Source of the DNA: Paramacrobiotus metropolitanus
Lineage: Eukaryota > Tardigrada > Eutardigrada > Parachela > Macrobiotidae
Length of the DNA stretch: 64,000 bases
Reading direction: 5' to 3'
Assembly (NCBI RefSeq): GCF_019649055.1
Contig: NW_026570309.1
Coordinates: forward strand, 248,001-312,000
A program made the position numbers and the translations under genes. The notes below the pieces were generated by a model. The model searched no databases, was not told the origin of the DNA, and saw nothing but the letters and a program-made list of their open reading frames with translations. Positions 20,645 through 62,940 of this stretch are shown here, piece by piece. Within the stretch, counting starts at the first letter, position 1, and each line of letters begins with the position of its first letter.

Positions 20645-20649
20645 CTGGA

Positions 20650-39560: not shown

Positions 39561-40524
39561 AGTATTCACCGGCATAATGCATGCCGCTCATCGGTATCCC
39601 GTATCACCACCAGCTTTCAATATGCGCAAAACAGAATGGAGCAGCAGTGCGGGAAGTTTTCGTTTTATCGTTCGTTTTTTACGTTTAACCTTTTAGGTTT
39701 AATTTTATTGTAACTCGACACAGGAATGTTCATGGGCTTCGTGACACCACAGATATACTGTACTTCTTTGTACATATGACCATAGTCGTCACAGCAAAGC
39801 AGCAAAACAGTAACGACAAATAAAAATACCAGCGCAGTCTAAAAACAACAGAAATGGCGCACGAGACAATCGAAATCTAAATAGTGCGGTAAGTAACTGC
39901 CCTTAACTGTCATTATACTACGGTACATGCAATAATATCTAGCAAGCGGTGCAGTAATCGTACTGACAGTGCACTCGATTGCAGCCCAAATTACGTAAGT
40001 ACTACCAACAAGTTGGACCCATTGACGTATAGGTCAACTGACCATTTTACATCCACTGAGAAACTGGACACATATTTCTTATAAACGGATTTAAATGGGA
40101 CTCTTTCTCGTTTATCGTTACGGAGCTCCGGTTGACACCGTTTGTACATGGCGGACTAATTTGGCTGCTTCAGTGCCGCGATTGCTAGGCAACATGCTAC
40201 TGCACCTGCAACATAGCAGTACCGGCGTCCTGGTCCCTTTGCCTTGATGGCTTGATGTAGTGCGCTTGTCGTGCTTACTTGATTGTTTTATTGCATTTGT
40301 TTTAACCAATCATAAGCGAATTGTATTAAGCAATGCAATTGCATCTTAAATAAATGGGAAGTTATGGTGCAAGCTATCGTGAACAAGTGTCAATGCGCTT
40401 AAAGTGTTAACAGTTCTATGTTCTTGACCTTAGTACAATATACAGTACCACTCCATTATATGCTAAACTTAATTGTCTGCACTATTGAAAATTGAGATAG
40501 AATTATCAGTTTACTTAAAGAAAC
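39561..40524. other. 5' flank of F-box copy G
   Basis: No exon recognised. The GC-richer part (40120-40260) contains GATTGCTAGGCAACATG, close to an RFX X-box, which may be chance. Confidence 0.3.
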
Positions 40525-42346
40525 ATGTACGTATATAATGTATGCAACGGATTGCGTGGTCCAGAAAGATGGCGCACGGTGGATGTATACGGCACAAACG
40601 GACTACTGCAGCACGGTGCAGTCATTAACGTTGTCGAGTGCGGGCTTGTTGTGGACTTCTTTTGTCCCGGCAGGCGATCAGAGCTGGTGGAATTTGAGAA
40701 AGCATTCCGGTGTGAAGGCTTCTTTGTGAAGGGTCGCGGCAAAGCCATCACCGGGACAGATAACGTTGAAGTACTAGTACAAGTGTCAGCCGATCAGCCT
40801 TGGACATGGTACCCAGCCAATTTCCTGGATCATCACATCCCTTGGGCGGAATTTGCCTTGGTCGCCGTGAGCGCCGGCGGCAGTGTATCCAAGAAAATTG
40901 TTTCACTCCGGCACATCCGGGTTCGGTCGACGGAATACGAGTTACTAAATCGAAGAGTTGGTAAGCGGGACTTTATCACCGGTACATACCAATTGCCGGA
41001 CAATGTGCCACAGCCGTTGGACCCGCGAACGTGGAGGAAGTGGAGGGAAGCGCTGGAATTGAATTTTCTGTGTAAAGTGTGTCCTGTCTGCTTCCGGCAG
41101 AATGAGTTGGTATACCTACAACCCGGCATCAACTCTTCGATACAGTCTGACTATTTGGTAAAAGCAGCAAATGTAATCTTAGTTACAGCCGCATGTACAT
41201 CTAGCCTTATGGTATTCACCGGAGTACGGAGGCCTCCGTGCTTTATGAGAAGCATATCCAGACGTAAAAACTGATAAAAAGCACAAAATACCGGTTAGAA
41301 CGAATAGCGCCGATATAGTCAGCCGGATAGAAGACTATTAAGTAAAACCTGTATATATGAAGGCAGGATCATAGTATGTACTATGTATGTACTTACTGAA
41401 AATCATAAGCCAGTGGCCTAATTTGTAAAGTACAGTATTTTTCGTCTCGACAGGCAGTCGTGATCGAATCTATTGTAAAGAAGAGCAACAGGACCAGGGA
41501 ACTGCGTACCCAACCAGTCAGTTCCGTGGCTGATCCGGACGACATACGGTTTGAGCGTTTATACCATCACTGGGAGGTGATGATGGTGATTTTCCGGCAA
41601 CTGACCACTTATAACCGAGCATACTACCGCCGCGTCTGTTCCGTGTGGGACGCCCTGTTGCAGTCAGACAGCACTTATAAGGCCGTCCATGTCTCGCTAA
41701 CCGATCGTTCGGACTTCCATGCTGCTCTGTGTATCTTGAACGCACTGAATTCGCAAACCGAGTACGTAATAATTGCCAACGCCGCATATCATACAGAGAT
41801 GTTGGAAGCATATTTACTGTGGATAGACGCTGTTCTCACGGTTGCGTCAGACTGTAAACCATGTAAAATAATCTTCTACGAATGCCGGTGGATATTTGAC
41901 GATCCCGCAGACGACACTGAGAGTCTCAACCACGTTGTGCCGAGGTTGAACGGCACACGACCGACAGTCAAAAAGCTGATGTGGGTCAGTTGTGCGTATT
42001 CATGCCTCCTTTCTCCGACATCTAAGAGATCAAAGTATGCCACCTTGCCTATGGCTACCGGTTCCATTCGGATTCCGTCGCCTAGTTTATCTGAAAACTT
42101 ATACTTTCTACTGGAGAAGGACCTTCCGTTGCCTTTGCCGAAACTGTCAAAGTGGGTCACCGATGTAGCCGATAGCGGTCAGGAAACTTATATCTATGAT
42201 ACCGATATCCAAACGGTAAAACTATCTCTTTCCGTTCTGGATATTGATTGTTAACTGGGCATCCTTCTGTAATTGGAAATTTATTACAGATTCTGCGAGA
42301 CTGCTTACTTTCTGAGAAGAGGAACACGCTTGGTGATGACTGCTAG
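40525..42346 (+). CDS. F-box family protein with FMRP-like N-terminus (copy G)
   Basis: Exons 40525-41157, 41454-42215 and 42290-42346 join in phase 0, about 483 residues. Tudor 1: ERWRTVDVYGTNGLLQHGAV and VVDFFCPGRRSELVEF. Tudor 2: DNVEVLVQVSADQPWTWYPA and RHIRVRSTEYE. KH0-like: LPDNVPQPLDPRTWRKWR and ELVYLQPGINSS. Exon 2 has a degenerate F-box (YHHWEVMMVIFRQLTTYNRA, YRRVCSVWDALLQ) whose LPxE core is not conserved, then the family region to EKDLPLPLPKLSKWVTDVAD. Exon 3 starts ILRDCLLSEKRNTLG and meets TAG after 18 residues, while family-like sequence (LHTLDVSTVMRVAVHV) continues beyond it, so the tail is shortened. With copy A it is the best-preserved member. Confidence 0.75.
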
Positions 42347-43666: not shown

Positions 43667-46515
43667 ATGGCAGATTGTCCAGACGTCAATATTATTCCGC
43701 GTTCAGAATGGGGTGCACGAAATCCGGTGGCCGGATTAACAAATTTGACGCTTCCGGTTAAATATATGGTTTATACGCACACTTTTGGCGAACCATGCAA
43801 TAATCCCACATCTTGTTCATCCATTGTTCGAGAAATACAGAATTTTCATATGAATTCGCCTAATAATTTTGCGGATATCGGATACAAGTGAGCAAGCATT
43901 TTGCTTCTAATACAATTGCAATATTTGGATAACTCCATCACTGGAAATACCAATACATCCCTTAACATTTTCAGGCGGCCTCGCAACAGTTATTTATTAC
44001 TAGCAATAGGAGAAAGAAAGATTCATTTTACTGAAAGAAATAAGAAAAAATGTTTTAATCGGCTTGAGTAACATGGAAATCTTACGGAAACCATACGTAA
44101 ATTTCAATTAAATGTGCTAGTCTTTCATGCATGATATCTGCGGCTAATCTAGATTCTACATTAATTTTTTATTTACAGTTTCCTGATTGGGGGAGATGGG
44201 TCGATTTTTGAGGGGCGTGGTTGGCATACGAAAGGTGCATATAATCCGGATTACAATAGCAAAGGATTCGGAACGGCCCTGATCGGTCGATTTCCCCCGG
44301 AAGGTGAAAGAACTATTTCAGAATACTGGAGTAAGAAAGCGCTTCATCTGATTATTTGGTTTGCAAACTTTGTACTTGGTATTAGGGAACTACTTCAGCG
44401 ATCTCAGCTACGCCGCCGCGAAATCAGCAAATGGATTATATAAGTGCGCACTGAGCAAAGGCTACATAAGTCCGGCTAACGATTCCGCCGTTATTACGTC
44501 CCGGATAAATCCCGTTATTCGAGAGTACGTTTTAAATCCGGACGTGTTAATGCGTAAGTGCACCGTGAAGGAATTACAGGATCCGTTTACTGAGACAGTT
44601 TGTATCACTGCAGCCACGACGACAACAACAACATCAACGACTACAACAACGATTTTATTCAACACAACGAATACAATCGTTTCTCCAACAACTAGCACCA
44701 CTCCTGGTACAAATTGTTTGCCTGCATTGCGCAGATTTTAAAAGCAAAACGCAATTAAGTATCATAGCGTAATGTAGCATTTTTATCAAGGTTTAATTAT
44801 TTATAGTTCTCACCGATGGAGTTATTGCGGCCATTGCAACTGGGGTCGCGATACCACTTCTGTTGGCTGTGTTGTTCATTGTCTTAATCTGCAAACGCCG
44901 CAATAAGCTAAAGGTCAGCATATCAATGCGCTTCTTGTTCCCTTAGGGTAAAATAAATGTTGTTCGTTTATAACAGACAACGGAAGATTATCGAGCGGCT
45001 ATTCAGAAACTCATTCCACAGACTACGATGGCGTATTATGAACGTCCCCGATGGTCGGTGGATTTAAGTAAGCACGAGCCCGGTTCTTTGCACTGTGCAG
45101 TACCCCATTATACAGCCACAGCTGCAAATTATTAACAGGTGCTTTTCACAGGAGACGTGTGCCTAGGAACAGGACAGTATGGACAGGTCTTTAAAGGTTC
45201 TCTAATGGACAGGAAACCGTCGAAAACCCTGGGTCCAACGCTGTCGGGATGCCGTCCAGTTGCGGTAAAGATGCTGCGTGAGTCCTGCTGTGATTATCAG
45301 GGAACAGCGGGGTTTTTGGCGGAAATGAGCATCCTGATGAAGGTCGGCCGGCATGTGAACATTGTTAACTTGGAAGGTGTGGTTTTACGAGGTAAATAAG
45401 CAAACTGTTGCAATAAAATGTTTGAGGTGCTTTCAAAGATGATTCACAGAGACGATAAGACTTTATCGTGCTTTATATGACTATAGTTATAATATTATCA
45501 TTTTAGGGAAGCTGATGATGGTGATGGAACACTGCGAGTTAGGATCTTTGGACGCGTATCTTCGGAAGTTAAAGGAGGACACTTTCGCACCACCCCTTGA
45601 TGTAAATAACTTGGTCCGCTTAGCCAATAGTTATGTCGCCTTTGGTGTCGGGGACAAGCCACAAGCTACGGTTGCGACTGGATCAGGTCCAGATGTATCA
45701 GAACTGACAAACATCGCCTATCAAGTCAGCCGAGGAATGGAATTTCTGTCGTCAAAGCATGTCATCCACCGTGACCTGGCAGCGAGAAATGTCTTACTGA
45801 CCGCGGATAAAACAGCAAAAATTGCCGACTTTGGGATGGCAAGGGAGCAACCGGAATATATTTTGGAAAGGGAAAAGGTACACAGGCAAAGCAGAGCGGA
45901 ACTCGAATAGTTTTCTCAGCTTGCAGCGCGATTCGCTGTTTTAACAATGGAGACATACTGCAAAACGAAATATCGAATACCTTTTATTTTTTAGGTTCCT
46001 TTACCAGTATGTTGGATGGCACCAGAATCCATTATTCCCGGTCGCGGAATTTTTCACATCCCCAGCGATGTGTGGTCGTTCGGTGTGGTTCTCTGGGAAA
46101 TATTCTCCCTAGGAGAGACACCATACGCGATGGAGTTCCCCAACGGAATTTTATACGCGCAACTATGTACGTTTCTGCAAGAAGGCAACAGGTTACAAAC
46201 GCCTGACCTTTGTCCAGAACCAGTGTAAGTGTAATATTGCTCAGTGCTACCCCAATTATTAATGGACGAAGAATCAGAATGAGGTGTCGTTTCAGTGCGT
46301 TATTGATGGTGAAGTGCTGGGACTTCCAATCCGACAGCAGACCGGATTTTTTCGAGCTGCGTAAAGGACTGGAGGCCCTGTTACCGGTTGCTGACAGAGC
46401 GCGCTATGTGCTTTTCGATGAGGAAAATGAAAAGCTCAACAGCTGCTTAAAGTGTCCGGCGGAAGATTCAGGCTGTGCATCCGAAACCGCGTCGTCTTAT
46501 ATATCGTATGCTTGA
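43667..46515 (+). CDS. PGRP-domain receptor tyrosine kinase, copy 1
   Basis: Ten exons: 43667-43887, 44179-44303, 44386-44553, 44614-44706, 44807-44913, 44977-45067, 45152-45391, 45507-45877, 45995-46224 and 46296-46515. They join without a frame break to 621 residues. Exons 1-3 are a PGRP domain: CPDVNIIPRSEWGARNP, YMVYTHTFGEPC, IQNFHM, DIGYN|FLIGGDGSIFEGRGWHT, FGTALIGRF. Exon 4 is a Thr-rich stalk (poly-Thr, TNTIVSPTTSTTP). Exon 5 is one membrane helix (ATGVAIPLLLAVLFIVLIC) with stop-transfer KRRNKLK. Exons 7-10 are a full tyrosine kinase: [87 protein letters not shown]. The kinase insert is about 30 residues longer than in the sisters. The first His of the amidase IHHT motif is Thr and the C-terminal His/Cys ligands are absent, so it probably binds rather than cleaves peptidoglycan. 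No signal peptide precedes MADCP; an in-frame TAA lies just upstream. Confidence 0.87.
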
Positions 46516-48132
46516 GAATCTGATAAAGATTTTTATTACAACTTTGTTCACATTGAACTTTACGCGTTTGTTAATTAAGATATACTTGCAAGCAAACTTC
46601 TCATATTGCGCATGCCGCAATGAATTGAACGTGGGGATTTAATTCAGCGTTAAATGGATTTCTTTAAGCATTCAGGGATCCGAATCTGCTTACTGCAGAT
46701 ACAGTACGCAGAAATTCGACGACAACGAAATCTGCAGAATTACGGATATGTCGCACTTCATACGCCCATTAAAATTGTAACGTGTTTGTGTATTGCGCAA
46801 GCAATCACGAAAACATTAATTAGACGATTCGGCCAGCCGATAGTGCATTTGTTTATGGCGGACCTGCGTGCTAATTACAAAGGCTCAAAGTAAGATATCG
46901 GAAATATTGTCTTGCGTATAAAGCCGACCAGCGTCATACGGTTTATCGACATGTATGTCTCGACTGGCTTGAACGTTATGAACAGAAACGTAAGCGGCAA
47001 ATGTTTACTAATATGGAAGTGATGTTATGATATTTTTGTTACCTAATGCAATCAGCGATAGCTGATGTATGTCAATTAGACATTTTTCGCAACTGCTCCA
47101 CTTAACCATAGCACTACACTTAACCATACGCTATGGTTAAGTGCGAGCGTATGGTAAATGCGGATACCATACAAATTCGTTGTATGGTAGCTGACTTCCA
47201 AAGGCTCCTCTTAGTTCCCATACACTTTAACTTCGTTAGAGCTAAGCTTTTCTAGCACAGAAAACATCGGAGAACTTGAATTTTGATGTTCTAAAGGATG
47301 CCATACCGTGTAGCACGAGAAAAAAAAATAAATACGAAGATCTCTAGAAAACATCTGCGCTGGTTTTAAGGTATCCTGTACACTGTCACTCCGATGGCGG
47401 TGTCTAGCTACACGATAAGGTATGGTTAAGGTATGGTTATGGTGTCTTTTGCGAAAAGCCTCTAATAATAGCGTGTACAATTTTAAAGTATTGTGCAACA
47501 ACAAACTGTTTATTCCAGGTACAAATGTGTTAGACGCAAAGCGAATACCGTTAGTTATCGCGAATGTTACAATTTCATGAACAAATCATGCATCAAGGAA
47601 AATTTTCCGGCAGTTAGTTCCAGGAAGTGCTCATTCAGACGCATAGTTATCGGTGACCCCATTGATAGTATGGCGGTAAAAACAGCCTGTTGACTCCATT
47701 AAATATGGGTTGATTGTGTCGGCGGTATTGCCAGACTCATAACAGTTAGGTTAAGCAAAATCATTGTAGGCAATAAAGATAACGCGTTGATGATCTAATT
47801 TAAACCGACCATAAATCCCGATAGTTACCTGCTCGTGTTACCGGCTTATGCAGCCGTTTTATGCAATAAGATCATAAGAGCGGCTTAATCAATAACCAGC
47901 ATTGCTCTTTTCTCTCGTAATATGCACAAAGTATTGTCTCGGGGAAATGGCTTTGCTAACAAGCACACCCACAATTTTTGAAAATGTGAAGCATAGTTAG
48001 CAATTTTTACATCAAAGATTTCACTTCTTTACCAGCATAATGTAAAACAAGTTCTTTATCGGTATAATTATTATCACTGTTGAACATCATTTAAGTAAAA
48101 TCTGTGCGACTTGAGTAACGAACAATGTCAGA
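46516..48132. other. Spacer between PGRP-kinase copies 1 and 2
   Basis: Contains inverted repeats made of CTTAACCATA/TATGGTTAAG words at 47098-47190, echoed at 47418-47440. From 47564 on it contains the conserved upstream block described separately. No gene seen. Confidence 0.45.
47564..47800 (+). promoter_or_regulatory. Conserved upstream block of PGRP-kinase copy 2
   Basis: The block is shared with 52856-53040 and 59115-59350. It includes TTCCGGCAGTTAGTTCC, TCATTCAGACG, ATCGGTGACCCC (47650-47660 core) and TGATGATCTAATT. At its start an ATGTTACAATTTCATG stretch aligns with the hydrophobic mini-exon of copy 3 but is out of frame here. It may be promoter, 5' UTR exon or a decayed signal-peptide exon. 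Confidence 0.5.
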
Positions 48133-51100
48133 ATGGCGGAATGTCCAGGAGTTGCCATTATTCCGCATTCTGAATGGAGTAAACGAAATATCACGGGAAG
48201 CCACACCGCTCTTAATTTACCCGTCCCATACATGGTGTTTAGGCATACCGAAACATCGCCGTGTGTCACTCTAGCTTCTTGCAGAAGCACCGTGGTTGCC
48301 ATGCAAAAGTCGCATGTGGACGGAAACCAATGGGTGGACATTGGATACAAGTAAGCAATGCGCATTTACGGATGAGTATATTAAATGTCACAAATGTTTT
48401 TTTTTGACGTGCCCTTTCCCGGGCCTTTACAGCACTATAATCAGTAACCACAGTATATTGCAGTTTTGTGATTGGTGGAGATGGATCCATCTTCGAGGGT
48501 CGAGGGTGGCATAATAAAGGATCGGTGGCGAAACAGTACAACAGTATCGGGATTGGGATAGGGCTTATCGGTAGGCTCAAGACCAACGGTGGGTGAATTC
48601 TTGTTATTCCTTAATGATTATTTAGACACAGGCACGCCATTGCATGGGTCGGCGCATTAGTAAAAATCCTCCTTATGGTTGTGGTAGAAGTACTTTATCA
48701 CCCTCAAAAGTTACGTTACAATTTCATGTCCCAACCACAATCCCCATTCTTGCTTTACTCTAGTTAACGACCAATCAACGACTTTATACAGCCATAGTCT
48801 TTAACATGTACTTTTCACAAGATATGTAAAGTAAAACCTTATTTGTTTCTATAAAAAAGGCGGAATAACAATTACAATGTTCTATTGATATTCTTATGGC
48901 ATGGTATAGGAACTCAGCCAGTGCTTATTTTCAGGAAGCGAAAATCATGGATTTCTGTACGCTGCTGCCAAAGCGGCCAATGGTCTCTTTTACTGTGCGC
49001 GGGGGAAAGCTTATATTAATCAGACAGCGGATGGTGCTGTTGTTGCCTATGACATTAACCCGCTGATCAAAGATTTTATCTTGGATCCGGATGCAATGTT
49101 AAGTTAGTATAACCATTTCTGGTTTCTGCTCTCTCATAACTATTCTTAGTACACGGGTGCGTTAACGGCACACTGGAGATTTTCACGGCAAACACAGATT
49201 TGGAAAGTACTGCATTTAGAAACTTGTATGTACGAGCATTTGGAGGCTTTTGCAGCGACAACGTTTCCTCCACCGTCGCCAACGCTGCCTCCAGATCAGT
49301 CGATAACCACTCTGCCCACAACAACGTCGGCTTCGACAAGCCAATCATCTTCGGTTTCTCCTGGCTCCCGAGGGTCCACCACCTCCGCTTTCACAACAAC
49401 CGAAGCATCGGGTGCGCCTTACGCAATTTAACGAAGCAAAAAGAGCAATCACTTTCGCTGATGCAACTTGAAGAGAGATCGTTAACATAACGCTATACAG
49501 TTAGATTACTTACTGTACTCTATTCCAACTAATGCGACACTTCGCAAATGTGTATAAGCACTTTCAAACTGGCATGATTAAACGAGATTCGTGATACATT
49601 AATATCATCTTCAAAAATTAGCGGTGAATATTCACGGCTTAAAATACCGTACAATTATTTTGCTACGAAAACAAATGCGCATTGTTTTGATTGTACGGTT
49701 ACAGCAATACCGGGAGAAATAGTTGCCGGAATCGCTGCAGGATTTGGAGGCCTAATTTTATTGTTTGCGGTTCTTGGGATTCTGTTTTACAAGCGGCGCC
49801 TTCGGCTAAAGGTCTTGTTATTGGTTACCGGTAATTGGCTGTAAACGGAATAGAACAGGAATCTACTTCTTACGCAGACGAATGACTACCGACCGGCCAT
49901 TCGAAAGCTGATCCCCGAGAATGTGATAGCTTACTACGAACTTCCACGGTGGTCTGTTGAACTGCGTACGTACAGTTTCAGTAGTAATCTAGATTGTTTT
50001 CCGTTGTGCTGTACTCGTATGTGCACAGCCAAAAGGGTTAGTTTTGTCGATTTTGTCTCTTTACAGGAGACGTTTGCCTTGGAGAAGGGCAGTATGGGAA
50101 AGTTTACAAGGGGATGTTGCTCGATAACAAATCACGCAACGTACAACGGCGCCGGTCATCTGAAAGTCGTTCCGTAGCGGTTAAGATGTTGCATAAACTG
50201 CGTCACGATGACCACAGGCACGCTGGTTTCATTGCCGAAATGGGCATTTTAATGAAAGTGGGTCGTCATGTGAACATTGTTAATCTGGAGGGTCTTGTTC
50301 TCAAAGGTAAGTGACGGCGTTCTGTGCATACTCCTATACTACTGTATGTATGTACATAAAACTTTCGAAAATAATGGAAAAAAACTTTTGTCAGGAAAAT
50401 TGCTCATGGTAATGGAGCACTGTGAGCTCGGATCACTCGAACGTTATCTCCAAAGACTAAAAGTGGAAGCGGCTGATGTTCCCATAGGTAAGTGATCTGT
50501 GCTCGACAATCACGCCGAATCGTGCGAGATTTAATACAGAGAGTTAACGGCAGTGCTGATATAGCGGAGCTAACCAATATGGCGCATCAAGTCAGCCGCG
50601 GAATGGAGTTTCTAGCGTCCAAGAATGTCATTCATCGAGATCTAGCGGCTAGAAACATCCTACTGAATGCTTCGAAAACCGTGAAAATTGCCGATTTCGG
50701 AATGGCGAGAGAACAGCCTGCGTATATATTGGAAAGGGAAAAGGTCAGCCTGCAACAAATCAGTAAGCAGATTATCGGTTTGTTCCTACTAGTTTCTCTC
50801 TTACAGGTTCCACTGCCGGTTTGCTGGATGGCACCTGAATCCATTATTCCCGGGAGGGGAATATTCACCACGTTGAGCGATGTGTGGTCGTTTGGTGTTG
50901 TACTCTGGGAGATATTTACCCTGGGTGGTGTGCCCTATGCCAGCGAGTTTCCCAATGGGATATTCTACACACAGTTTTGCCTCTTCTTGCAAGAGGGTCA
51001 ACGATTAAGCACACCGGAATTATGTCCAGAATCATTGTAAGAACGTACCAGAAGTATATTACCGGGAGATTCACAAACATTTCCTGCCTATCTATTTGAC

Positions 51101-51337
51101 AGTGCGATACTAATGATGAATTGCTGGCACTTCCACGCGGAGGATCGACCCAATTTTTCCAGCTTGAGGCAAAGCATAGAAGCACTATTGCCGGCGATAG
51201 AAAGGGCACAGTACATTGCTTTTGATACGGAAAACGAGGCACTGAATAACTGCCTCAACAATCCAGCAGATTGTTCTAGCTCGTCCACTTCTTCATCGAG
51301 CACTTCGTCATCTAGTCAAACCATCGCGAAGATGTAA
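48133..51337 (+). CDS. PGRP-domain receptor tyrosine kinase, copy 2
   Basis: Exons: 48133-48350, 48464-48588, 48935-49102, 49256-49411, 49705-49811, 49878-49965, 50067-50306, 50395-50462 (or 50487), 50540-50743, 50807-51036 and 51103-51337. [66 protein letters not shown]. The stalk is Ser/Thr/Pro-rich (TTFPPPSPTLPPDQSITTL ... SVSPGSRGSTTS). The helix is [20 protein letters not shown], followed by KRRLRLK. Kinase: [52 protein letters not shown]. The kinase hinge exon is split by an intron the sisters lack. The strong donor ATAG|GTAAG breaks the frame with the only good acceptor; the weak donor AAA|GTGGAAG keeps it, giving about 612 residues. The tail is Ser-rich. Confidence 0.84.
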
Positions 51338-51589
51338 CGCGATTTCCTCATTGCTGAAATTCTGTTTCATGAAACACCTTAGAATTCTTTTGTTTGTTTC
51401 TCGTTTTTCTCGGTTGTGGGATCAGTTTGTGTATCATGACTGCCGTTGGCCCGCAAATAATAAAATTAAATAACTTATTCGGCACTAGTCGCACTACTGT
51501 CAAATCGTAGTTACAAGTTTTATAAGCTGATACTGTTGCTCGTGCTCCTCATTATTCGTAATCACCAAAAAAGCACATTGTCCATGTGG

Positions 51590-52265
51590 TTAGTCAAGGA
51601 TGATGTCAGCGACGAAACTCTTGCACTGCTCATCCCCATCACCAGGAGCGCATCCTTGTCCCAGCTGCATGTCTTCCAGAAGAATAAGATAATCAATGGG
51701 GTGAGCATGCAGTGAATCCAGTAAGGCCTTTATCGCGTCCTTTTGCGGCACGATTTTATCCGCGGTGTAGGAAACAGTGTATTTGACCAGACGACCTCCG
51801 TTAATCGTCTTGTCTTCTGTCAGCTTGGTTTTAACATTCTGTACTTTCGTCGGGCTCAGTAGTTTATCTGCAAATACATAGTGCACAAAAATGATTCCCT
51901 TAACACACTGGTTCCCTGTTCCTTCTGCTCCTCTATAAGGAAGCCAGGAATTTAATGTTGCAGTTCACTGAACATAACATAACATAAGGAAGATTTTGGC
52001 AGTATTGTATCGTTTTACCTAATGCCGATTTCCATCGTGTTCCCAGCGCGTTGAGGACCTCAGTGTTCGTGTGATTGGCCATGGACAAAACCTTATGATT
52101 AATAACATCTTGCTTGGCTGCTGTAAATAAAAAATCGAAGTAGATAGCTTTTTGATTAATATTATGTATAATTTTGTGCAAAACTGACGCATTCAATCAA
52201 CATGCACCTTCGCTCGGTGTTCCTGTAGCAGCTATGATTGCAATAATCACAATATACCCCAACAT
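51590..52265 (-). CDS. Small secreted protein of unknown function
   Basis: Three exons, 52265-52208, 52120-52019 and 51867-51590, join in phase 1 each time to give 145 residues. The N-terminus MLGYIVIIAIIAATGTPSEG is a convincing signal peptide. The mature part has an N-glycosylation site (ANHTN), a Lys-rich middle (VQNVKTKLTEDKTINGG, LVKYTVSYTADK) and two cysteines close together near the end (GQGCAPGDGDEQCKSF), likely one disulfide. I recognise no domain. It lies antisense between PGRP-kinase copies 2 and 3; a functional link is only a possibility. Confidence 0.7.
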
Positions 52266-52269
52266 TCTG

Positions 52270-52855
52270 GTGGTCCAGGACAAGAGATACGAAGGAGAAA
52301 AAGGCAGAATGATTTTCTTTAAAAGATAAAAGTTAGGGTTTGGTGAAAAGGTCGGTATCACGGGTACGTATGCACTACGCAGTTATCATAATAGTAAATT
52401 ATTACAAGAATAGGGGTGCGCAACTTTGTAAGGCAAAGCTGAATTAATGGACAAACTTGAACATTACAGCCGGCAGCAAAACTTTCAAGATTTTCCACTT
52501 CAGCTTTTTCAATGTCCGGGGTAGGCTGGCAGTAGTTATGTAACTTACTGTGTTCTGTTATGCTGATCAGCGTGGTACGTATAGTTTTGGACGTATTGCA
52601 TACGCTTATTTGCACTATTTTTTGGTAGGAGAGTGAAAAAAACATCTGCACAATCTACCTCAACACAATCGCCATTAGCCTTCCTCCCTTTCCCTCGTAT
52701 CGGCTACAGCTAAGGGTGTAGAATACAGTATTATGGAACACTACTAGTACTTGTACTCTGTAAGTACGAGTAGCCGGGATTTGGTTTGGGTTCGTATAAA
52801 TATATCGAGTAACTTGGAATGTGTGCACGGCTAGCCGTTCCATTACTTGCACGAC
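52270..52855. other. Spacer between the secreted-protein gene and copy 3
   Basis: No exon recognised. It should hold the promoter of the minus-strand secreted-protein gene. Confidence 0.3.
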
Positions 52856-53040
52856 ATGTTTCTAATTTCATGGATATTACCAGCAATGGTTTCCGGCAGG
52901 TTAGTTGAAGAGGATGGCCGTTCAGACAGAGAATTATCGGTGACCCCGTAGATAATATTATTGCGTTGAGTACACTTCATGTTGATCGAACCGGAATATT
53001 TATCACAGGTAATGCTGATAACATGCGGATGATCTAGTTG
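52856..53040 (+). promoter_or_regulatory. Conserved upstream block of copy 3 with a possible signal-peptide mini-exon
   Basis: ATG 52856 opens 14 codons, MFLISWILPAMVSG, ending at GGCAG|GTTAGT (52899), which looks like a signal-peptide exon with a good donor. An acceptor GGCAAG|C at 53245/53246 would join it in frame to MTDCPG. TCGGTGACCCC follows at 52937-52947 and GATGATCTA near 53030. The aligned stretches in copies 2 and 4 are frameshifted or interrupted, so the coding reading rests on this copy alone. Confidence 0.4.
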
Positions 53041-53249
53041 TGGCCTAACAGAAATCCGGAAATTACCATTCTCGTTTGACTTAAAGCATTTTCATATTGT
53101 TAACCAAAGCATCTCAATTTGCGAGAAATTGCAGTACATATAACTAATATTTTTGACATTCAACCGTGCCAAAATTTTTGTCAGTATGCGCATTTGAGCA
53201 CATTTGTAATTAAATTTAAGAAAATGCAGTTTACTGACCGGCAAGCAAA

Positions 53250-56200
53250 ATGACTGATTGTCCAGGAGTGACTATTATTCCGCGGTCTGAATGGAACGCG
53301 CGGAATGCCACGTCCGATCTCACCCGTCTGGATCTTCCGGTTCCGTATATGGTGTTCAGAAATAGCTACACATCATCATGTTTCACTCTGGCGTCCTGTA
53401 AAACCACTGTTGCTGAGATTCAGAATACGCACATGGAAAACAATTTTTTCGACATACCATACAAGTATGTTTACTCTCACAGAAAACTTCCACAGACCAA
53501 ATTTTTTTACTGTACTCTGTACATGCGAATTTATCCCTTAGCGGCATGGGTTACGTTAAACATCCCTAGTTGACCGTTAATTAAGCGCCTCGGTTTACAG
53601 GCGATATTACGTACATCTAGCTTTGGACTTTGGAAAACTTTGGAAAACACAGAGCAGAAAGATCTGGTTGCGGTCAAATGTCATTGTGCAGCGTTCGAAC
53701 AGAAAAAATCGCATATGTGAATACGAGTACAGATACAGTACTATCTGTAACTGCAGAATTTACTGCAGTACTTACTGCAGAATTTTTGTTTCACATACAG
53801 AGTAGTGAGCAAAAATAGTTCTCTTACCCCTAAGTAATTATGCGATAAGGTTAATGCTCACCGTCAAATGACTTTGAGCCAATAAAATTCTCGATCAGAC
53901 TAGAACAGCGCCGCCGCGAGAGTACTGTACCGCAAAAACGCCACCAGTCTTCCAAATACCGACGGTGTTTAATCAGAACCCGTTTTAGCCAGCTGCAAAG
54001 AAATCAAAGGCAGAGAGATGTGTTTTTGTTTAGGAAGTGAAGATCATGAGTTTATGTACGTTGCTGCCCGGGCGGCCAATGGCTTACTTCACTGTGCAAT
54101 GGAGAAAACCTACATTAACCAGTCAGCAGATGAAGCTGTTATTGCCTTTGACATCAACCCCCTGATCAAAGATTTCATATTGAATCCGGGTTTGCTGGGT
54201 TAGTGTGATGCTATCATTTTATTGTTTGTTCTTAATTAGCGTAAATTACCGGAGGTTTGAAGTACTGATAATTATGCTTACTGCGCCCGTAACTGCGGTT
54301 AAAACTTAAAAGTCTGTAGCATTCCCTGATCATCCGTGTATAAGACACAACCATTCCTCGAACCTCGAACTTGGTAAGAAATTCTTATACCCGTACCTAC
54401 GACTGATACTGTAGAACTCACGATTGACGATCGGATTTGACAAGAATAGACGAGAGAAAGAATAGGTAGACGAGTTTGGCATGACGTAAACGGCTACTGC
54501 AGTAGGGCGTTCGAAGTACCGCAAACCGCAGGGTAATGCTGCTAGGAAACGGCTGAATGTACCATGAATTTTGCAACAACAGCATTTACCGCAACGTTCC
54601 CTACAGCTTCATTATCCGCAGGTCAACCGACATTCTTGCTATTTCCGACAACCACAATGTATCGGTCTCCTTCGACGTCTTCTAATTCAAACAGCAGTTA
54701 CAACACTGCCACCAATGATTCTTCACCAATCATAATGGAACCGTCAGGTACGAGTACCGAAAACATATGGTCATACGAGTCTCATACCGTAATATTATAT
54801 GATTTGCAGTAATTAGGGGTGAGGTGGTGGCTGGGATTGCTGCTGGATTTGGTGGTTTAATTTTATTGGTTGTCCTAGTGGCGATTGTGTGCCTCAAGCG
54901 GCGCAACCAGCAAAAGGTCAGCTAATTGCATGTGCTGCGATAATCGCAAGAACGAAATGCAGAATATTTTCTTGATAAGCAGAAACAAGATTATCGACCG
55001 GCTATTCGCAAAATGGTTCCCGAAAATCTGATTGGCTACTATGAAATTCCCCGGTGGTCTGTTGGATTGCGTACGTGCCGTTTTCCCAGCCGTGTAAAGC
55101 GTTCTCCGATGTATGCTGTAGAAAGTTATTACATGCATGATTCTTGCAAATCAATAGGCGACGTTTGCCTGGGAACGGGGCAGTATGGAACGGTGTACAA
55201 AGGAGTCTTGCTGGACAACAAATCACGCAAAGCGCAGCTGAGCCGATTATCCGAGAGCCGTTCGGTCGCGGTTAAGATGATGCGTGAACAGCATCCCGAT
55301 GGGCACATGCATTCTGGCTTCCTTCAGGAAATTGGCATTCTGATGAGAGTGGGCCGACATGTGAATATCGTCAACTTAGAGGGTCTTGTTCTCAAAGGTC
55401 AATGGAAGTTTGAATCAAACTAATAGTCTATCAATGTTTGCTTTATTATTTTCACTAGCTCATCATAATTACATTTTCAGGAAAGCTCCTCATGATAATG
55501 GAATACTGCGACCTGGGATCTCTCGAAAGTTATCTCCGAAAGATAAGAGCGGAAGGGTGCGATATTCAGAGCATTGACATTACTGAGTTAATCAGCATTG
55601 CATACCAAATAAGCCGCGGAATGGAATTTCTCTCTTCGAAAAATGTCATTCACCGCGATCTGGCGGCTAGAAATATCCTTCTGAATGCTTCGAAAACTGT
55701 CAAAATTGCCGATTTCGGAATGGCGAGAGAGCAACCTGAATACATCTTGGAAAGGGAAAAGGTTAGCTGGTACAAACAGCACTACGTGCGCTTTACGAAG
55801 ACAGTTAACCGCTTAAGGTATTGAGTTTTAGTTTTAGTTTAATCGCTCGAGTTATGAATAGGTTCCGCTCCCGGTTTGTTGGATGGCACCCGAGTCTATC
55901 ATTCCCGGCCGTGGTATCTTTACTACGCTCAGTGATGTGTGGTCATTTGGTGTTGTTCTGTGGGAGATATTCTCTCTGGGCGGTGCTCCGTATGCAAGCG
56001 AGTTTCCCACTGGGATCTGGTATTCACAGTTCTGTCTTTTCCTTCAAGAAGGTCAACGATTACATACGCCGGAATTGTGCCCAGAGTCAATGTACGAGCA
56101 TACTACCTGTGGTTGGGCTTTTCCTAAACATTTTACGTGCATTTTTTGACAGTGCGACACTAATGACTGCTTGCTGGCATTTCCACGCTGAGGATCGGCC

Positions 56201-56408
56201 GCATTTTTCCAGTCTAAGGCAAAGTATAGAAACACTGTTATCGATGGCGGAGCGGACGCGGTTCATTGGTCCCGATACGGAGAATGAGACACTTAATGAC
56301 TGCCTCAACATCCCAATTAATTGTTCCAGTCCATCTGGAATTGTTCCAGTTCCAGCTCATTCTTCGCCCGGATCTGACACTTCTAGTCAAATTGTTGTAA
56401 TGATTTAG
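53250..56408 (+). pseudogene. PGRP-domain receptor tyrosine kinase, copy 3, central PGRP exon missing
   Basis: Exon 1 (53250-53464) is [37 protein letters not shown]-like and ends in the usual phase. The exon for FLIGGDGS...GRGW is absent from the 570 bp that follow. The next family exon is 54034-54198 (GSEDHEFMYVAARAANGL), and joining it directly to exon 1 gives AAG TGA, a stop. The later exons are all intact: stalk 54583-54747, membrane helix 54810-54916 ([26 protein letters not shown]), 54983-55070, kinase 55158-55397 (GTGQYGTVYKG, SVAVKMM), 55481-55761 ([25 protein letters not shown]), 55862-56091 and 56153-56408. Either the gene is dead despite a conserved kinase, or a product without a PGRP domain is made, or the assembly dropped an exon. 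Confidence 0.75.
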
Positions 56409-56738
56409 CGAGACATAAAAACGCAGCATGTGCATGATGCCTATATTTTCAAGCGCTCGAATATGGCGGCTGTTCATAAGTGAAGCGTAAAACTTCTCCT
56501 AACTAACGACATACTATTGCAAGTGCTTCAATCCTAGGGTAGCCCAGTACGAGTATGAAAGCAGCTTCGTGCACACGAACACGTGCAAACCTCGTTCGCG
56601 GACCATGTTTTCTTTTTTGTGCATTTTGACAATCCAGAGTTTTTTTTGAATGAAAATCAGGAGATGAACGAGTACAGAAGTATATTATATGGAGAACACA
56701 AAATGAGGTCACTGCTCTGTTTTTTTTTTAAAATTTAA

Positions 56739-58404
56739 TTATAATTTACCGGCATACGAAATGTTTGCTACATTTCGCAACAATATCAAGATGTCGTCCT
56801 TCGATAGGCCTTTATTTGCCAGCTGATCCATAATAAGGACGTAAGTTATCATCCCGCCGATTAGCTACAAAAAACAGAAAGTAAAATTATTTCTCCATTA
56901 AACACTTTTGAAACTTTGGAAACCGTTTTTTTGGCAAAACGAATAACGCATCAGTATCCAACTTACGGTTGCCACGAACTGGCGGTTTACGGTGAAGAAT
57001 CCACCAACAGTGAACGCCACGCTAACGGAGCTGACCCTTCTGATTAAAAACCTAAGTATGGAATCATCGTTTGATGCAGCCGATGGTGCATCGGCTGCGA
57101 TATTTCGCATGGACTCTTTGATATTTTCAGCCTGAAATGACAAAAAAGGGAAATGCCATAATTCTGCCTGTACGTGCGCTGGAAAAGGGCAAAAAATGAT
57201 CATGCAGTGCAACACCCACTTAACAAAGCAGCGTGCACAATGTTGGTTCCCGTAGAGTTTGTACGCTGTCAACTACTCTGTACATATTTTTTGAAGACAT
57301 AATTCGATTTCTTTTCAAGAGCAGAGAATTAGCACGTCGGATGTTTAACTGCATAAAAACTCTCCGCCCCCTTTTCACAGCATATACACGTGCCCGACTG
57401 CCCGTACGTAACTTTTTACGTAATTACAGTATTTCATTTACCTGCTCTAGCATGTACACGGGTGTCCATGTGCCGAAAACAGCACAGAACACTAACGAGG
57501 AAAGATTTTGGACCACAACAAGTGCTCCAGTTCTCAAACGATCAATATACGTTAGCAGCGTAAAAATCTGATAAGCATACACCAGCAGCAACGTTAATGA
57601 TGACAGTTCACTCAGTTGGCGTATAATTCGAGAGAGATTCACATGATCATTTATGATGGCCTCGATTTCTGTCACCTGCTTTGCATTTATCAATTTGCTG
57701 TTGATTCTGCTGAAGCATACTCCAACCGTAAAGCAAATTACCATGGGGATCGATTGAATCAAATAGAACACCAAATCCATAATCCACTGGCTTACTAATT
57801 GAAAATCCTTAAAAAACCGCAGAGTGAGCGACGTTGTCGGCAGTCCATACCATCGACTCATAAACTGTAGAGATCCGATACGCGCTGCACCGCCCCAAAG
57901 GGTATCCACCATGTAGCCGGCACCAACCGCGTTACACGTATGTATGATTAGTGCGAAGAGAATGACAATGGTTTTATCGCGCTTCTGTAGGTACTTTGTG
58001 CAGAAAGGTCCCGCTTGACGAATTGCTGCTACGTAATCAGAGTAGACATAGTGGAAGTACGCAACGCTAATTAAGCGTGTAATTGTCCGCTGAAGATCGG
58101 TGAAGAAGCTGAGGAGAGCGCCCGTCTCACTGCTTAATTGTGATTGCGATATTCTTATATAAAATGCTCCAATCGTAGCCACATAATAAGTGGCTAAGAG
58201 GCTTACCGCCCAGATAAGATGGAAACTTTTCCATATTAGGGACAAATTTCTGGTACCCGGTTTTCGCAAACTGGAGAAGATGCCGTATCCTGCCAGAGCG
58301 CAAACGAGTAACCATGGTTTTATCAGCTTTTCCAAAAACGTTAGGGTATGCGTATATTTCCCGAGAAAATGGAGCACGTTATGCAAGCATTGCAGCTTTG
58401 CCAT
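56739..58404 (-). CDS. Gustatory-receptor-like seven-helix protein (7tm_7 type)
   Basis: Three exons, 58404-57442, 57131-56967 and 56864-56739, join in phase 0 to 417 residues, the usual size for insect-type gustatory receptors. About seven hydrophobic segments are visible (for example PWLLVCALAGYGIF, IWAVSLLATYYVATIGAFY, TIVILFALIIHTCNAV, IPMVICFTVGVCF, LTLLLVYAYQIFTLL, FCAVFGTWTPVYMLE). The last helix contains TYVLIMDQ, matching the TY-x5-Q signature of the family. The start is the ATG before AKLQCLH. Members are ligand-gated cation channels with an inside N-terminus. It lies antisense between PGRP-kinase copies 3 and 4. Family call is moderate because these proteins diverge fast. Confidence 0.7.
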
Positions 58405-59114
58405 AAAGAACCGCTGTCTTTTATAAACCAGGCAAAATCTGCTATAAAGCAAGATGGTGCCAGGCAATCGGCATTGTCAAAGCTCAGTTGTCTAGTTCTG
58501 TTTTATATAATATCAACATGATTGAAATTATATTAAATTGCTGGTAATCTGACAGAATGCCCATATTGTCAGTTATCTGCAAATCTATCTGGTTAACGCT
58601 TTCCCAAACTTGTATGTCATTGTCTTCTTGAAAGATGCTGAACTCACGGCAAATGAACTGCTTCGTAACTGTTAATGTCGACTGCAATGACGCACAGTAC
58701 TGTACTGTATTAGCAGTACTGCCAGTACAGATCAGATCATACATACATACGTACGTACTGTATGCTATATTCTCATAGCTAGAGCGTATTTGATTTTATG
58801 ATACAATAAAAGCATGCTGCATCCACTGCGTAATGTGTACTTAATTGAAGGACTGTAATTCTCACGAGAGCTTGTGTTGTGTTTTTGTGTTTCGATGAAT
58901 ACACAGTCAGAGTTCAAACTGAGTTCGCCAAAGGAAGCAAACTGGGTGCTCCCAGTTCAATTTGCTAGGCTTTACGGGCTGGAACAAAGAATTTCTTAGT
59001 TAAAAATGAGATTGTGGAATATGATACAACAACTATTTGTTTCCGGTTATGCCATTAAATTGTTGAATTGTACTCGTATCGCTTGCGAAAAGCGAGTAAT
59101 TTCCGGGTTGTGTA
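58405..59114. other. Spacer upstream of copy 4
   Basis: No exon recognised; a run of GTACTGTACTG-type words lies at 58690-58760. Confidence 0.3.
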
Positions 59115-59350
59115 ATGTTTCAAAGTTCATGAATACATGCGAGCAGTAGTGTTTTGATAAGTAGGTGTGTTCCAGGCTCGTTCAGGCGCTCATTCCGACA
59201 GAAGTTAATCGGTGACCCCGTTGCATAGCTGTAAAATGGTCAATGTGGGTTGGGTCGTGTCTGCGGTGTTGTGATATTTACAGTGAAGACAGGCAAAGTT
59301 ATCGCAGGTAATATGTAAAAGATAACGTGCGGAATGCGGATGATCTAATT
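59115..59350 (+). promoter_or_regulatory. Conserved upstream block of PGRP-kinase copy 4
   Basis: Aligned with the blocks of copies 2 and 3: ATGTTTCAAAGTTCATGAAT (an in-frame TGA follows after five codons), GCTCATTCCGACAG, TCGGTGACCCC at 59209-59219 and GCGGATGATCTAATT near 59335. It lies about 450 bp upstream of the PGRP ATG. Confidence 0.5.
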
Positions 59351-59562
59351 CTTGTTGATTATAAACCAAGACAGTATACGCTCGTTAAACTGGTTGAGCG
59401 GTTCTGGCTGGCTAACTGAAGTGCAATTTTAAATTCTGGAGAATGTATTAGTATTTTTCGCCTTTCAACCGCCGCATATTTTTGTCGCTATGCCACCTAT
59501 ACACATCTGGAAATGTAATTCTTATGGAATTGTGGAATGCTATTTAGTGAAGGACGAATAAA

Positions 59563-62500
59563 ATGACAGATTGTTCAGGAATTAATTTTGTTCGGCGTTC
59601 CGAATGGAATGCCCGTAACAACACAACCGAGCTCGTTATTCTCGATCTCCCGGTCCCGTATATGGTGTTCAGGCACACTAACACGTTACCGTGTGATACT
59701 CCGGCTTCCTGCAAAGCCGCCGTTGCTGGCATTCAGAATACGCAGATGGCAAGCAGCTTTTTCGACATTGCGTACAAGTATGCTTATTTTCATGCGTTAC
59801 GAATAAATTCCGGTATATCAAAGCTGTTTATATTCGTATGCGGAATGCTTGAATAATATGTGGTCACGTTAATCATCTGTAGTCGACAGCATTTGCGATA
59901 TGTGCTATGTTTGCAGTTTTGTAATTGGCGGAGATGGCTCGGTCTTTGAGGGACGAGGTTGGCACCATAAAGGATCCGTGACCCCAATGTACAACAGTAG
60001 AGCCATTGGTGTTGGTCTTATCGGTTGGCTCCAAACGAACGGTAGGTAACGCTTTAAAAAAAAAAATTTTGAAAGCCCGTCAGAATAGTAGTTGTGTGGT
60101 TGTACACACGATTCCAATAGTTGTAACCATCTTGCTCACAACTGTAACAGTCGACAACAGTCAAACCCCTTCGTTAATTTTCCCCTGTTTAAACGAAAAC
60201 TGGTTGCTTAACCGAAGCGCCTTTATTAACATTATTCTAGCCCGCTCCTTGCAAATCAGATGAATGTGCTTATCTTCAGGAAGTGAAAATCATGGATTCA
60301 TGTACGCCGCTGCCAAGGCGGCAAATGGATTACTTCATTGCGCGCTGGGGAATGGTTACATTAATCAGTCGGCTGATTACGCTGTTATTGCTTTTGACAT
60401 CAACTGGCTAATCAAAGGGTTTATACTGGATCCCGATTCGCTGCTCAGTTAGTAAAACGACATGTTAGTTTATACCAGTTGCACGGTTCATGTGCCGTGT
60501 GCGACATTAAATCGGAAAACTTTGTCAGCGTTGTCTGCAGATCCGTCGACATCAACGCTGACTACGACAGCTTCGCCATCAACAACCTACCGATCATCTT
60601 TCACTGTTAACCACACTCGTGTGAACAGCTCTTCACCAACCGAAACGGAACGGTCAGGTACGTATGGGATGGTACTTTAGGTTTCGATATCTTTATCAAC
60701 TAAGGAAGCTGCTGCTTCTCGGCGCATCTTTGAAGTTTTACACGATCTCCTGTTTCAGAACTAATTTCAAAAAAAGAAAAATAACGCACAAGATTGCTCG
60801 TAACGTGTATCTGAATGCATTGCAGCAATAAGTGGTGAAACGGTGGCTGGGATTGCTGCAGGATTTGGAGGCCTAATTTTGTTGGTTGCCCTAGGGGCAG
60901 TTTTGTTTCATAAACGGCGCAACCAGCTAAAGGTCAGTAGTGCATTATTCGCAATAGTTGCAACTTGTCCTGACGGCGTGTATACTGTTTTATTGAGCAA
61001 GCAAAGGATTACCGACCGGCTATCTGCAAACTGATTCCCGAAGGTGTGGTCGCTTACTATGAAATTCCGCGCTGGTCTGTTGAGCTGCGTACGTGCCCGC
61101 TTTCAACCCCATAAAACCGTTTACGTTTTAAAATTATGCGTTTTAAAAACTAAAAACCATAGCAATGAACTGTTGTCTATAAACAGGAGACGTTTGCCTT
61201 GGAACAGGGCAATGTGGGAAGGTTTTCAAGGGAGTATTACTTGATAACAAATCGCGCACAGCACAGCTGCGTCGATTATCAGAGAGCCGGTCCGTAGCTG
61301 TTAAGATGACCCATGAACAGCAGAGTGACGATACTACTACCCACACAAGTTTTATTGCGGAAATGAGTATTATGATGAAAGTCGGTCGCCATGTGAATAT
61401 TGTTAACTTGGAGGGTCTTGTTTTAAAAGGTCAGTCGCAGGAGAACGCATGTATAAGTGTAAACTGCACAGCTTGTGTCCATTTTTCGTGATTTGCTTAC
61501 ATTTACAATTTTACATTTATCAGAAAAGCTACTTATGGTAATGGAAAACTGCGAACTTGGATCACTCGAAAGCTACTTACAAAAGGTAAAAGCGGAAGCG
61601 ATTGATCTCTTGAACTTTGATGTTATGGAGTTACAAAGCTTCGCGCATCAAATATGCCGTGGAATGGAGTTCCTGTCTTTGAAAAGTGTAATTCACCGCG
61701 ACCTGGCGGCTAGAAATATTCTTCTCAGTGCCACAAAGATTGTCAAAATTGCCGATTTCGGAATGGCAAAAGAACTCCCGGAGTACATCTTGGAAAGGGA
61801 AAGGGTCAGCTTGCCATTAGACACAGAATACGTAACTCAGTAGTAAAACGATGCTCTTAAAGCATCTTAAAGCAGCTTAGTCTGGCGACCGCGCAGCTTA
61901 GAGCAGCTTACGACTGTTCATACCCAACCTGGGAAATCGAACCCAAGACATACAATCTTAAAGCCAGACGTACTACCAGCAGGCTATGGGCAGATTAACA
62001 TAAATTTGGTTTTATTATTTTTCCTACAGTAGCCAACTTATTCAGCGTAAGCTGATGAAGATACGTATCTTACCAGGCTAATGGAAAATTTTTTTGGTAC
62101 ATTTTGAAAATTCAGTGTAAGCTGATGAAGATATCTTACCAGGCTAATGGAAAATTTTTTTGGTACATTTTGAAAATTTTATACTTTTTTTGGTTTGATT
62201 TTAAGTTGTGCATTAGCTTAACGGTATCCCGTAGCATCTTGCAGCATTATTGTGCATTAGCACCAGCAGCAGCATTGCTCCGTGTACTGATAGCACGACT
62301 GTTTCTTCATTTTTATTCGTAGAAGCAGAAGTGTTACGCAGAATAATGCTGCGTCAAATTCTTGTTCGAAAGTAAACCTGTATATTATAGGTTCCGTTGC
62401 CGGTGTGCTGGATGGCACCGGAATCCATCATTCCCGGTCGTGGAGTCTTCACCACGCTGAGCGATGTATGGTCATTTGGCGTGGTTCTGTGGGAAATATT

Positions 62501-62940
62501 CTCCTTGGGCGGTATTCCATATGCTAGTGAGTTTCCTAACGGGATCTTCTACACACAGTTTTGCCAATTCCTTCAAGAAGGTCAACGACTAAGTATACCG
62601 GAATTATGCCCAGAATCAATGTAAGAGCCTTCCGGAGCGCGGTCGCCTGACTTTTTACGAATTTTTTACGCCTCTTCTTGACAGCGCGGTACTGATGACA
62701 AATTGTTGGTCCTTCCCTGCTGTGGATCGACCTGGTTTTTCCAGTTTAAGGCAAAGTATAGAAGCGCTACTGCCGATCGCGGACAGGAATCGGTATATTG
62801 CTTTTGATATGGAAAATGAGAAGCTGAACAACGGCATCAATAGCCTGGCCGATGGTTCCAGCTCAACCGGTTCTTCGCCCAGATTTTTGGCATCTGGTCA
62901 AATTGTCGTGAAGATCGATTTACCGGAAACCTCGCATTAG
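59563..62940 (+). CDS. PGRP-domain receptor tyrosine kinase, copy 4
   Basis: Ten exons: 59563-59777, 59917-60041, 60280-60447, 60529-60657, 60826-60932, 60998-61088, 61187-61429, 61524-61804, 62391-62620 and 62685-62940. They join in frame to 614 residues. [83 protein letters not shown]. Stalk: [17 protein letters not shown]. Helix: [18 protein letters not shown], then KRRNQLK. Kinase: [11 protein letters not shown] (Tyr to Cys in the Gly loop), [60 protein letters not shown]. The amidase His of the first motif is Arg and the late His/Cys ligands are missing. No signal peptide precedes MTDCSG in exon 1. The 586-bp intron before exon 9 is swollen by a SINE-like piece and a tandem duplication. 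Closest in sequence to copy 3. Confidence 0.87.
61925..61990 (-). repeat. tRNA-derived SINE-like or tRNA pseudogene fragment
   Basis: On the minus strand an A-box-like TAGCCTGCTGG and a B-box GGTTCGATTTC stand 33 bp apart. The B-box is flanked by arms CTTGG/CCAGG that form a T-stem, but the anticodon stem does not pair well. It sits inside the last long intron of copy 4 and continues into non-tRNA sequence, as SINEs do. Confidence 0.45.
62041..62178. repeat. ~70-bp tandem duplication in an intron
   Basis: TTCAG(C/T)GTAAGCTGATGAAGATA through TTTGGTACATTTTGAAAA occurs twice in a row; the copies differ by a 4-bp CGTA and one substitution. Recent slippage or unequal exchange. Confidence 0.8.

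Follow-up and report, generated by a model that had tools for sequence, protein, structure and literature searches.

The 64-kb window analysed here (the whole stretch of 64,000 nucleotides from contig NW_026570309.1) contains a tandem cluster of four genes, termed A to D, on the forward strand between the ATG of A at position 43667 and the stop codon of D at position 62940. In the gene models of A, B and D a peptidoglycan recognition protein (PGRP) domain and a tyrosine kinase form a single polypeptide, while C as drawn does not encode such a product (Table 1). The DNA of the window reads as eukaryotic with spliced genes, and the models were rebuilt by hand from splice signals and comparison between paralogues. 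Translations of A, B and D contain no internal stops and run in the order PGRP domain, Ser/Thr stalk, one helix, juxtamembrane exon and tyrosine kinase. All drawn introns have GT...AG ends (nine in A, ten in B, eight in C and nine in D), and neighbouring genes are separated by 1617, 1912 and 3154 bp. No further copies were found in the window by tblastn at E 1e-3 with A, B and D as queries, the D query carrying a frame error.

A preliminary description of this DNA had proposed four genes of the same exon order with shared intron phases, in which the PGRP occupies three exons and the kinase four, and one helix is followed by a KRR-type stop-transfer sequence. The shared phases were borne out, as the nine introns common to A, B and D have the identical series 2,1,1,1,0,1,1,0,2, and a strong hydrophobic helix followed by KRR is present in all four copies. 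The common exon order and the three-exon PGRP hold for A, B and D and fail for C, from which PGRP exon 2 is missing. Likewise, the kinase is encoded by four exons in A, C and D and by five in B, where an extra 56-bp intron lies in the kinase-insert region between 50395-50487 and 50544-50743.

The Pfam family PK_Tyr_Ser-Thr was matched in all four copies at E 8.2e-73 or better, and the VAVK motif with the ATP lysine, an alphaC-type Glu, HRDLAARN and DFG are invariant throughout. The kinase retains its catalytic motifs and is predicted to be active. Comparison with solved structures placed VEGFR2, PDGFRA and FGFR1 nearest after an EGFR chain (best 60 of 902), and the position of that top-row EGFR chain is inflated because both of its kinase domains were counted; a second ranking gave VEGFR2, VEGFR1, PDGFRA, 7t6f and FGFR1 (best 60 of 615). 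Among the matches listed, and by small margins, these PDB rankings suggest that the kinase is nearest to the VEGFR/PDGFR/FGFR class. A single activation-loop tyrosine is invariant (EYILERE in A, C and D; AYILERE in B), as are three juxtamembrane tyrosines (DYR, YYE) in the four copies, and the kinase insert is short, being longest in A. No Ig-like domain was matched by Pfam at E 0.01, in searches that found Amidase_2 and the kinase families. Comparison of the kinase alignment with prokaryote genome contigs returned 101 stretches that matched the pattern and with viral contigs 263 stretches, with no relative in either set.

Amidase_2 of Pfam was identified in A, B and D (E 6.4e-9, 2.4e-8 and 8.7e-8, respectively), in all cases over the gathering score. 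A phmmer comparison of the B domain with solved structures matched 28 distinct sequences at E 0.01, the best being bumblebee PGRP-SA (E 7.1e-27), and a profile built from the three copies A, B and D matched 31 at E 0.001 with PGRP-I-alpha as the best (E 3.2e-33). NCBIfam returned no matches for the three PGRP members, and comparison of the PGRP alignment with viral contigs listed 33 loci at 29-51% identity. The core motifs IGGDGS, FEGRGWH and YNS are invariant in A, B and D, together with cysteines C4, C44, C50 and C135 (B numbering), which presumably form disulfides paired as in known PGRPs.

In amidases of the T7 lysozyme type the zinc ligands are His, His and Cys. H38 was the sole residue to align with a ligand, the first one (MAFFT alignment), and the second and third ligands have no counterpart in A, B or D. 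No His or Cys follows C134-136 in the PGRP of these three copies, and therefore two of the three ligands are gone whatever the alignment. Because of this loss, the PGRP is, to judge from its residues, of the binding (sensor) type and not of the cutting type, and peptidoglycan binding by the ectodomain, as predicted from homology, is plausible. PGRP-LC and PGRP-LE of the Drosophila IMD pathway similarly possess a PGRP without the amidase zinc site, and chains of both were among the matches of the structure searches.

At the dipeptide associated with ligand specificity, the column of which was placed by us using solved-PGRP profile alignments, A and C both carry NF, B carries QW and D carries SF. 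One study describes Gly/Arg-Trp as favouring diaminopimelic acid (DAP)-type peptidoglycan and Gln-Phe as favouring the Lys type, with a selectivity that is maybe not absolute (PMC4655397). Judged by this position, B resembles DAP-type receptors and the other three copies Lys-type ones. The assignment is nevertheless mixed, because the Arg of EGRGW, which we take to be part of the DAP site, is retained in A, B and D. Since the copies differ at the dipeptide, ligand specificity may be split within the family.

These residues can also be interpreted as a fused receptor with a working kinase whose PGRP binds a host or other ligand instead of peptidoglycan, which would make the family an ordinary growth-factor-type receptor tyrosine kinase (RTK). 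The lost zinc site and diverged PGRP end, the non-standard dipeptides of B (QW) and D (SF), and a kinase near VEGFR/PDGFR among the matches listed would all suit such a receptor. However, zinc-ligand loss is also typical of known sensing PGRPs, and the three core motifs have stayed invariant in A, B and D under purifying selection; we regard a host ligand as unlikely.

The joining of PGRP and kinase exons was examined through the way in which the copies have diverged. Introns are saturated while phases and exon order are shared: in forced alignments five introns had identities of 0.41-0.49 in comparison to 0.59-0.74 for nine exons (second kinase exon left out). Stalk exon lengths of 93, 156, 126 and 117 bp (A, B, C and D) differ by multiples of 3, and indels between copies preserve the frame, the stalk included. 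Differences at codon position 3 were compared with those at positions 1+2 for three of the six gene pairs (A-B, C-D and B-D). Third-position excess was found in the PGRP exons (p 9.2e-14 for A-B, 2.8e-5 for C-D and 3.4e-7 for B-D), in the kinase exons (p 1.1e-28, 2.6e-16 and 5.6e-17, in the same order) and in the combined transmembrane and juxtamembrane exons of A-B (p 1.7e-5) and B-D (p 1.9e-5). The ratio of non-synonymous to synonymous substitution (dN/dS) was <1 wherever dS was unsaturated, with the highest value outside the stalk being 0.42 (exon 1, B-D); most comparisons involving A have saturated dS, which restricts the use of this ratio largely to B, C and D. Overall, the PGRP, helix and kinase exons are under purifying selection, and the stalk is not clearly so.

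Alternatively, PGRP genes and transmembrane kinase genes might alternate along the cluster and be transcribed separately. This arrangement would agree with the AWTAAA motifs found between exon 3 and the helix in B and D, with the lack of AWTAAA within 600 bp 3' of the D kinase stop, and with the Met codons of the C stalk. However, in A, B and D the first Met downstream of PGRP exon 3 is found only past the helix, in the juxtamembrane exon of A and in the first kinase exon of B and D, and a separate transmembrane kinase would therefore need an exon that was not seen. The gap between PGRP and helix is 253, 602, 611 and 378 bp in A, B, C and D, as against intergenic distances of 1617-3154 bp, with no AWTAAA in that of A or C, and the shared phases and in-frame stalk lengths also argue against two families, which leaves this arrangement highly improbable. 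The view of the preliminary description, that PGRP and kinase are truly fused in one gene, thus stands for A, B and D, where it is well supported at the level of gene models by the common intron phases, indels that keep the frame, purifying selection to either side of the helix and the lack of a kinase start between PGRP and helix.

The exon-3 donor also allows for a short product. In B (49103), C (54199) and D (60448) this donor is GTTAGT, so that retention of intron 3 would place a stop codon in frame directly after exon 3, and a PGRP-only product is therefore possible in three of the four copies, a property that would equally serve separate PGRP transcripts. A locus yielding the full receptor together with a short PGRP-only decoy or cytosolic sensor would be compatible with a fused receptor. 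Since GTTAGT is also a normal donor, the stop may be a coincidence, and intron 3 of A, at 60 bp, contains no in-frame stop; we give such dual output little probability.

Gene C departs from its neighbours in the PGRP. In the 569-bp gap where exon 2 would be expected, DNA comparison gave nothing beyond word matches of 7-10 bases (E >1) and protein comparison gave no match, although 26 bp of intron 1 can still be aligned to D (81%, E 0.010). Exon 1 is in phase 2 and exon 3 in phase 1, and because these do not join in frame the drawn model of C cannot yield the complete receptor; the exons for stalk, helix and kinase remain open. The loss of exon 2 could be taken as a sign that the cluster is decaying and its genes are pseudogenes, but the reading frames of A, B and D are open and their splice sites are GT-AG, and low dN/dS is seen even in C (0.24 for exon 1 and 0.17 for exon 3, in comparison to D), so that a decaying cluster appears extremely unlikely. 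These low values also indicate that C degenerated late or still makes a kinase. As gene models, three of the four copies are intact and selectively maintained.

The position of the ATG is equivalent in every copy: it lies three codons ahead of the first cysteine of the PGRP and is itself preceded by an in-frame stop, at a distance of 0, 6, 4 and 4 codons in A, B, C and D, respectively. In the hydropathy profiles of A, B, D and the part of C from exon 3 onward, a single peak per protein exceeded 2.5 and no other rose past 1.34, which places a single transmembrane helix between ectodomain and kinase. Flanking charge in A, B and D is -1 to -2 before the helix and +4 to +5 after it, and because the positive charge lies C-terminal, insertion by the helix itself with the N-terminus out and the C-terminus in is the favoured topology. 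The simplest predicted protein is one without a signal peptide, and its N-terminus is probably carried across the membrane by the helix itself, for which neuregulin is a precedent. A PGRP that is not exported and acts in the cytosol, like the intracellular sensor PGRP-LE, would account for the conserved ATG directly 5' of the PGRP and for the signal peptide that was not found. It conflicts with the charge difference across the helix and with the mucin-like stalk, sequons and invariant disulfide-type cysteines that fit the secretory pathway, and a single-pass inserted helix cannot keep both ends inside; a cytosolic PGRP is accordingly very unlikely.

Taken together, the cluster probably encodes a tandem family of RTKs with a PGRP as ligand-binding domain that would be clustered by peptidoglycan, and it is plausible that peptidoglycan sensing passes straight into tyrosine phosphorylation. 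PGRPs bind muropeptides and are clustered by polymeric ligand, and RTKs are activated by being brought together. Polymeric peptidoglycan bound by several PGRP domains would bring the receptors together, and a small-residue run in the helices of B, C and D (GIAAGFGG) would aid their pairing. The kinases would then phosphorylate each other on the single activation-loop tyrosine and the juxtamembrane YYE tyrosines, and phosphorylated YYE would recruit SH2 adaptors, so that the bacterial cell wall would be read out via a growth-factor-type pathway and not via an IMD or Toll adaptor. A wider and more doubtful scenario is that a lineage in which the IMD/NF-kB route was lost or never present, as is reported for tardigrades (PMC7056985), put its PGRP directly onto a growth-factor-type tyrosine kinase, after which tandem copies with signal-peptide-free export became tuned to peptidoglycan types.

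In addition to the AWTAAA motifs described above, several results weigh against this RTK reading. Export of the PGRP is unexplained because no cleavable N-terminal signal peptide was found with confidence: a scan of 1.5 kb upstream for a signal-peptide exon gave no candidates in A and one, three and eight in B, C and D, apparently unshared. Helix-driven export of a disulfide domain of ~200 residues would be unusual, and no other step of the mechanism is as weak. In copy C the PGRP is broken, and Pfam gave no Amidase_2 match for either exon 1 alone or the piece from exon 3 onward, and profile matches of the intact domains to solved PGRPs stop by residue 152 of 170 at the latest. The codon-position signal was not significant for the transmembrane and juxtamembrane exons of C-D (p 0.096) or for the stalk (p 0.32 for A-B, 0.44 for C-D and 0.13 for B-D). 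Lastly, the kinase ranking has narrow margins, and between PDGFRA and FGFR1 stands 7t6f, which is not an RTK chain (213.6 bits; best 60 of 615).

Known systems resemble parts of this putative PGRP receptor. PGRP-LC and PGRP-LE sense peptidoglycan, and LC is anchored in the membrane as a type II protein whose cytosolic tail recruits adaptors. In the genes described here the PGRP stands at the N-terminus, before the helix, the charges point to N-out/C-in in place of type II topology, and a tyrosine kinase forms the predicted cytosolic portion. The VEGFR/PDGFR/FGFR class (Pvr in flies) is alike in kinase ranking (among matches listed), in its one helix and in its juxtamembrane and activation-loop tyrosines, whereas the family described here has a PGRP ectodomain with no Ig-like Pfam match, no signal peptide that was found and a short kinase insert. 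Venus kinase receptors are invertebrate RTKs that have borrowed a ligand-binding module from another family, the Venus flytrap in their case and the PGRP in ours. Plant LysM receptor kinases and bacterial PASTA kinases such as PknB are alike in fusing a glycan- or peptidoglycan-binding ectodomain to a kinase, but their ectodomains have other folds, their kinases are of Ser/Thr type and the architecture is not the same. PknB binds muropeptides, according to one report (PMC3145798).

Among the entries listed (in two cases 20 of 1,639 and 30 of 43), full-text searches of open-licence literature surfaced no report of a PGRP receptor tyrosine kinase, and the preliminary description likewise knew of none; an uncurated animal database entry may well exist. 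The novelty would lie in an RTK with a new ectodomain. Innate immune receptor signalling by an own kinase domain is familiar in plants and, to our knowledge, has not been described for animal PGRPs, which reach gene expression through Toll or IMD adaptors. A survey of eight tardigrades reported PGRP homologues only in eutardigrades, with R. cf. coronifer excepted, left most IMD-pathway genes undetected and found no Relish or NF-kB, and the sections consulted do not mention a kinase fusion of PGRP (PMC7056985). These findings leave open what PGRP signals through in these animals, and if the window is from such a tardigrade, a receptor of this kind would supply a concrete answer. If the reading is correct, such a protein would be, in any animal, an innate immune receptor with signalling by its built-in kinase, and a one-protein pathway from the cell wall to phosphotyrosine.

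Table 1. Positions of the receptor genes, their exons and the upstream block in the window.
Feature	Position	Strand	Remark
Gene A	43667-46515	+	621 aa, open
A exon 1, PGRP part 1	43667-43887	+	contains start codon
A exon 2, PGRP part 2	44179-44303	+	FLIGGDGSIFEGRGW
A exon 3, PGRP part 3	44386-44553	+	zinc-ligand His/Cys absent after C136
A exon 4, stalk	44614-44706	+	Ser/Thr-rich
A transmembrane exon	44807-44913	+	KRR stop-transfer
A juxtamembrane exon	44977-45067	+	DYR...YYE
A kinase exons	45152-45391, 45507-45877, 45995-46224, 46296-46515	+	last ends with stop
Upstream block of B	47604-47671	+	common to C (52890-52958), partly D (59188-59228)
Gene B	48133-51337	+	619 aa, open
B PGRP exons	48133-48350, 48464-48588, 48935-49102	+	
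B stalk exon	49256-49411	+	
B transmembrane exon	49705-49811	+	
B juxtamembrane exon	49878-49965	+	
B kinase exons	50067-50306, 50395-50487, 50544-50743, 50807-51036, 51103-51337	+	last ends with stop
Gene C	53250-56408	+	PGRP exon 2 missing, exons 1 and 3 not in frame
C PGRP exon 1	53250-53464	+	exon 2 absent downstream
C PGRP exon 3	54034-54198	+	out of frame with exon 1
C stalk exon	54622-54747	+	
C transmembrane exon	54810-54916	+	
C juxtamembrane exon	54983-55070	+	
C kinase exons	55158-55397, 55481-55761, 55862-56091, 56153-56408	+	last ends with stop
Gene D	59563-62940	+	610 aa, open
D PGRP exons	59563-59777, 59917-60041, 60280-60447	+	
D stalk exon	60541-60657	+	
D transmembrane exon	60826-60932	+	
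D juxtamembrane exon	60998-61088	+	
D kinase exons	61187-61429, 61524-61804, 62391-62620, 62685-62940	+	last ends with stop

Upstream of the genes, only short blocks are kept among B, C and D, and with A the start-codon region alone aligns. The block listed in Table 1 is perhaps a promoter or 5' leader. Its core, TTATCGGTGACCCC, is exact at 47647-47660 (B) and 52934-52947 (C) and has one mismatch at 59206-59219 (D), all on the forward strand, and is not found upstream of A. With up to three mismatches the core had six matches in the window in comparison to 3.06 expected, a count reached in 9 of 100 shuffles, and for this reason only the exact and one-mismatch copies are meaningful; the other three matches all have three mismatches. 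A protein-coding role for the block was rejected by eye, as the core has no third-position changes. The upstream candidates for a signal-peptide exon in B, C and D were rejected in the same way as unshared, with A lacking any; one candidate leader of C (52856-52899) is signal-like, and the matching stretches of B and D encode nothing similar by eye. Scans with Rfam and for tRNA genes gave no matches. The 586-bp intron of D before the third kinase exon contains two 66-bp tandem copies (62040-62178) with a 93% match.

Elsewhere in the window, a 350-aa frame on the reverse strand between C and D (57424-58476) has six hydrophobic peaks and no Pfam match, and looks like a chemoreceptor-type multi-pass protein. 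Six paired frames were observed at 3936-5721, 11475-13211 and 18054-20653 on the reverse strand and at 14984-16718, 31432-33211 and 40519-42254 on the forward strand, in which an unnamed domain (RAVDVRDGKG...VDFLYPGRR) is followed by an F-box-like frame, apparently a family of two-exon F-box genes. The Pfam F-box-like family fell just under the cut-off in the one paired frame tested. Five of the six first-domain frames (query included) were linked by tblastn, with 12627-13211 unmatched, as were five of the six F-box frames (query included), with 15675-16718 unmatched. A single-frame kinase-like open reading frame on the forward strand (34789-35895; Pkinase E 6.1e-32) has HKD for HRD and no DFG, with IGG at about that place, and is a possible pseudokinase.

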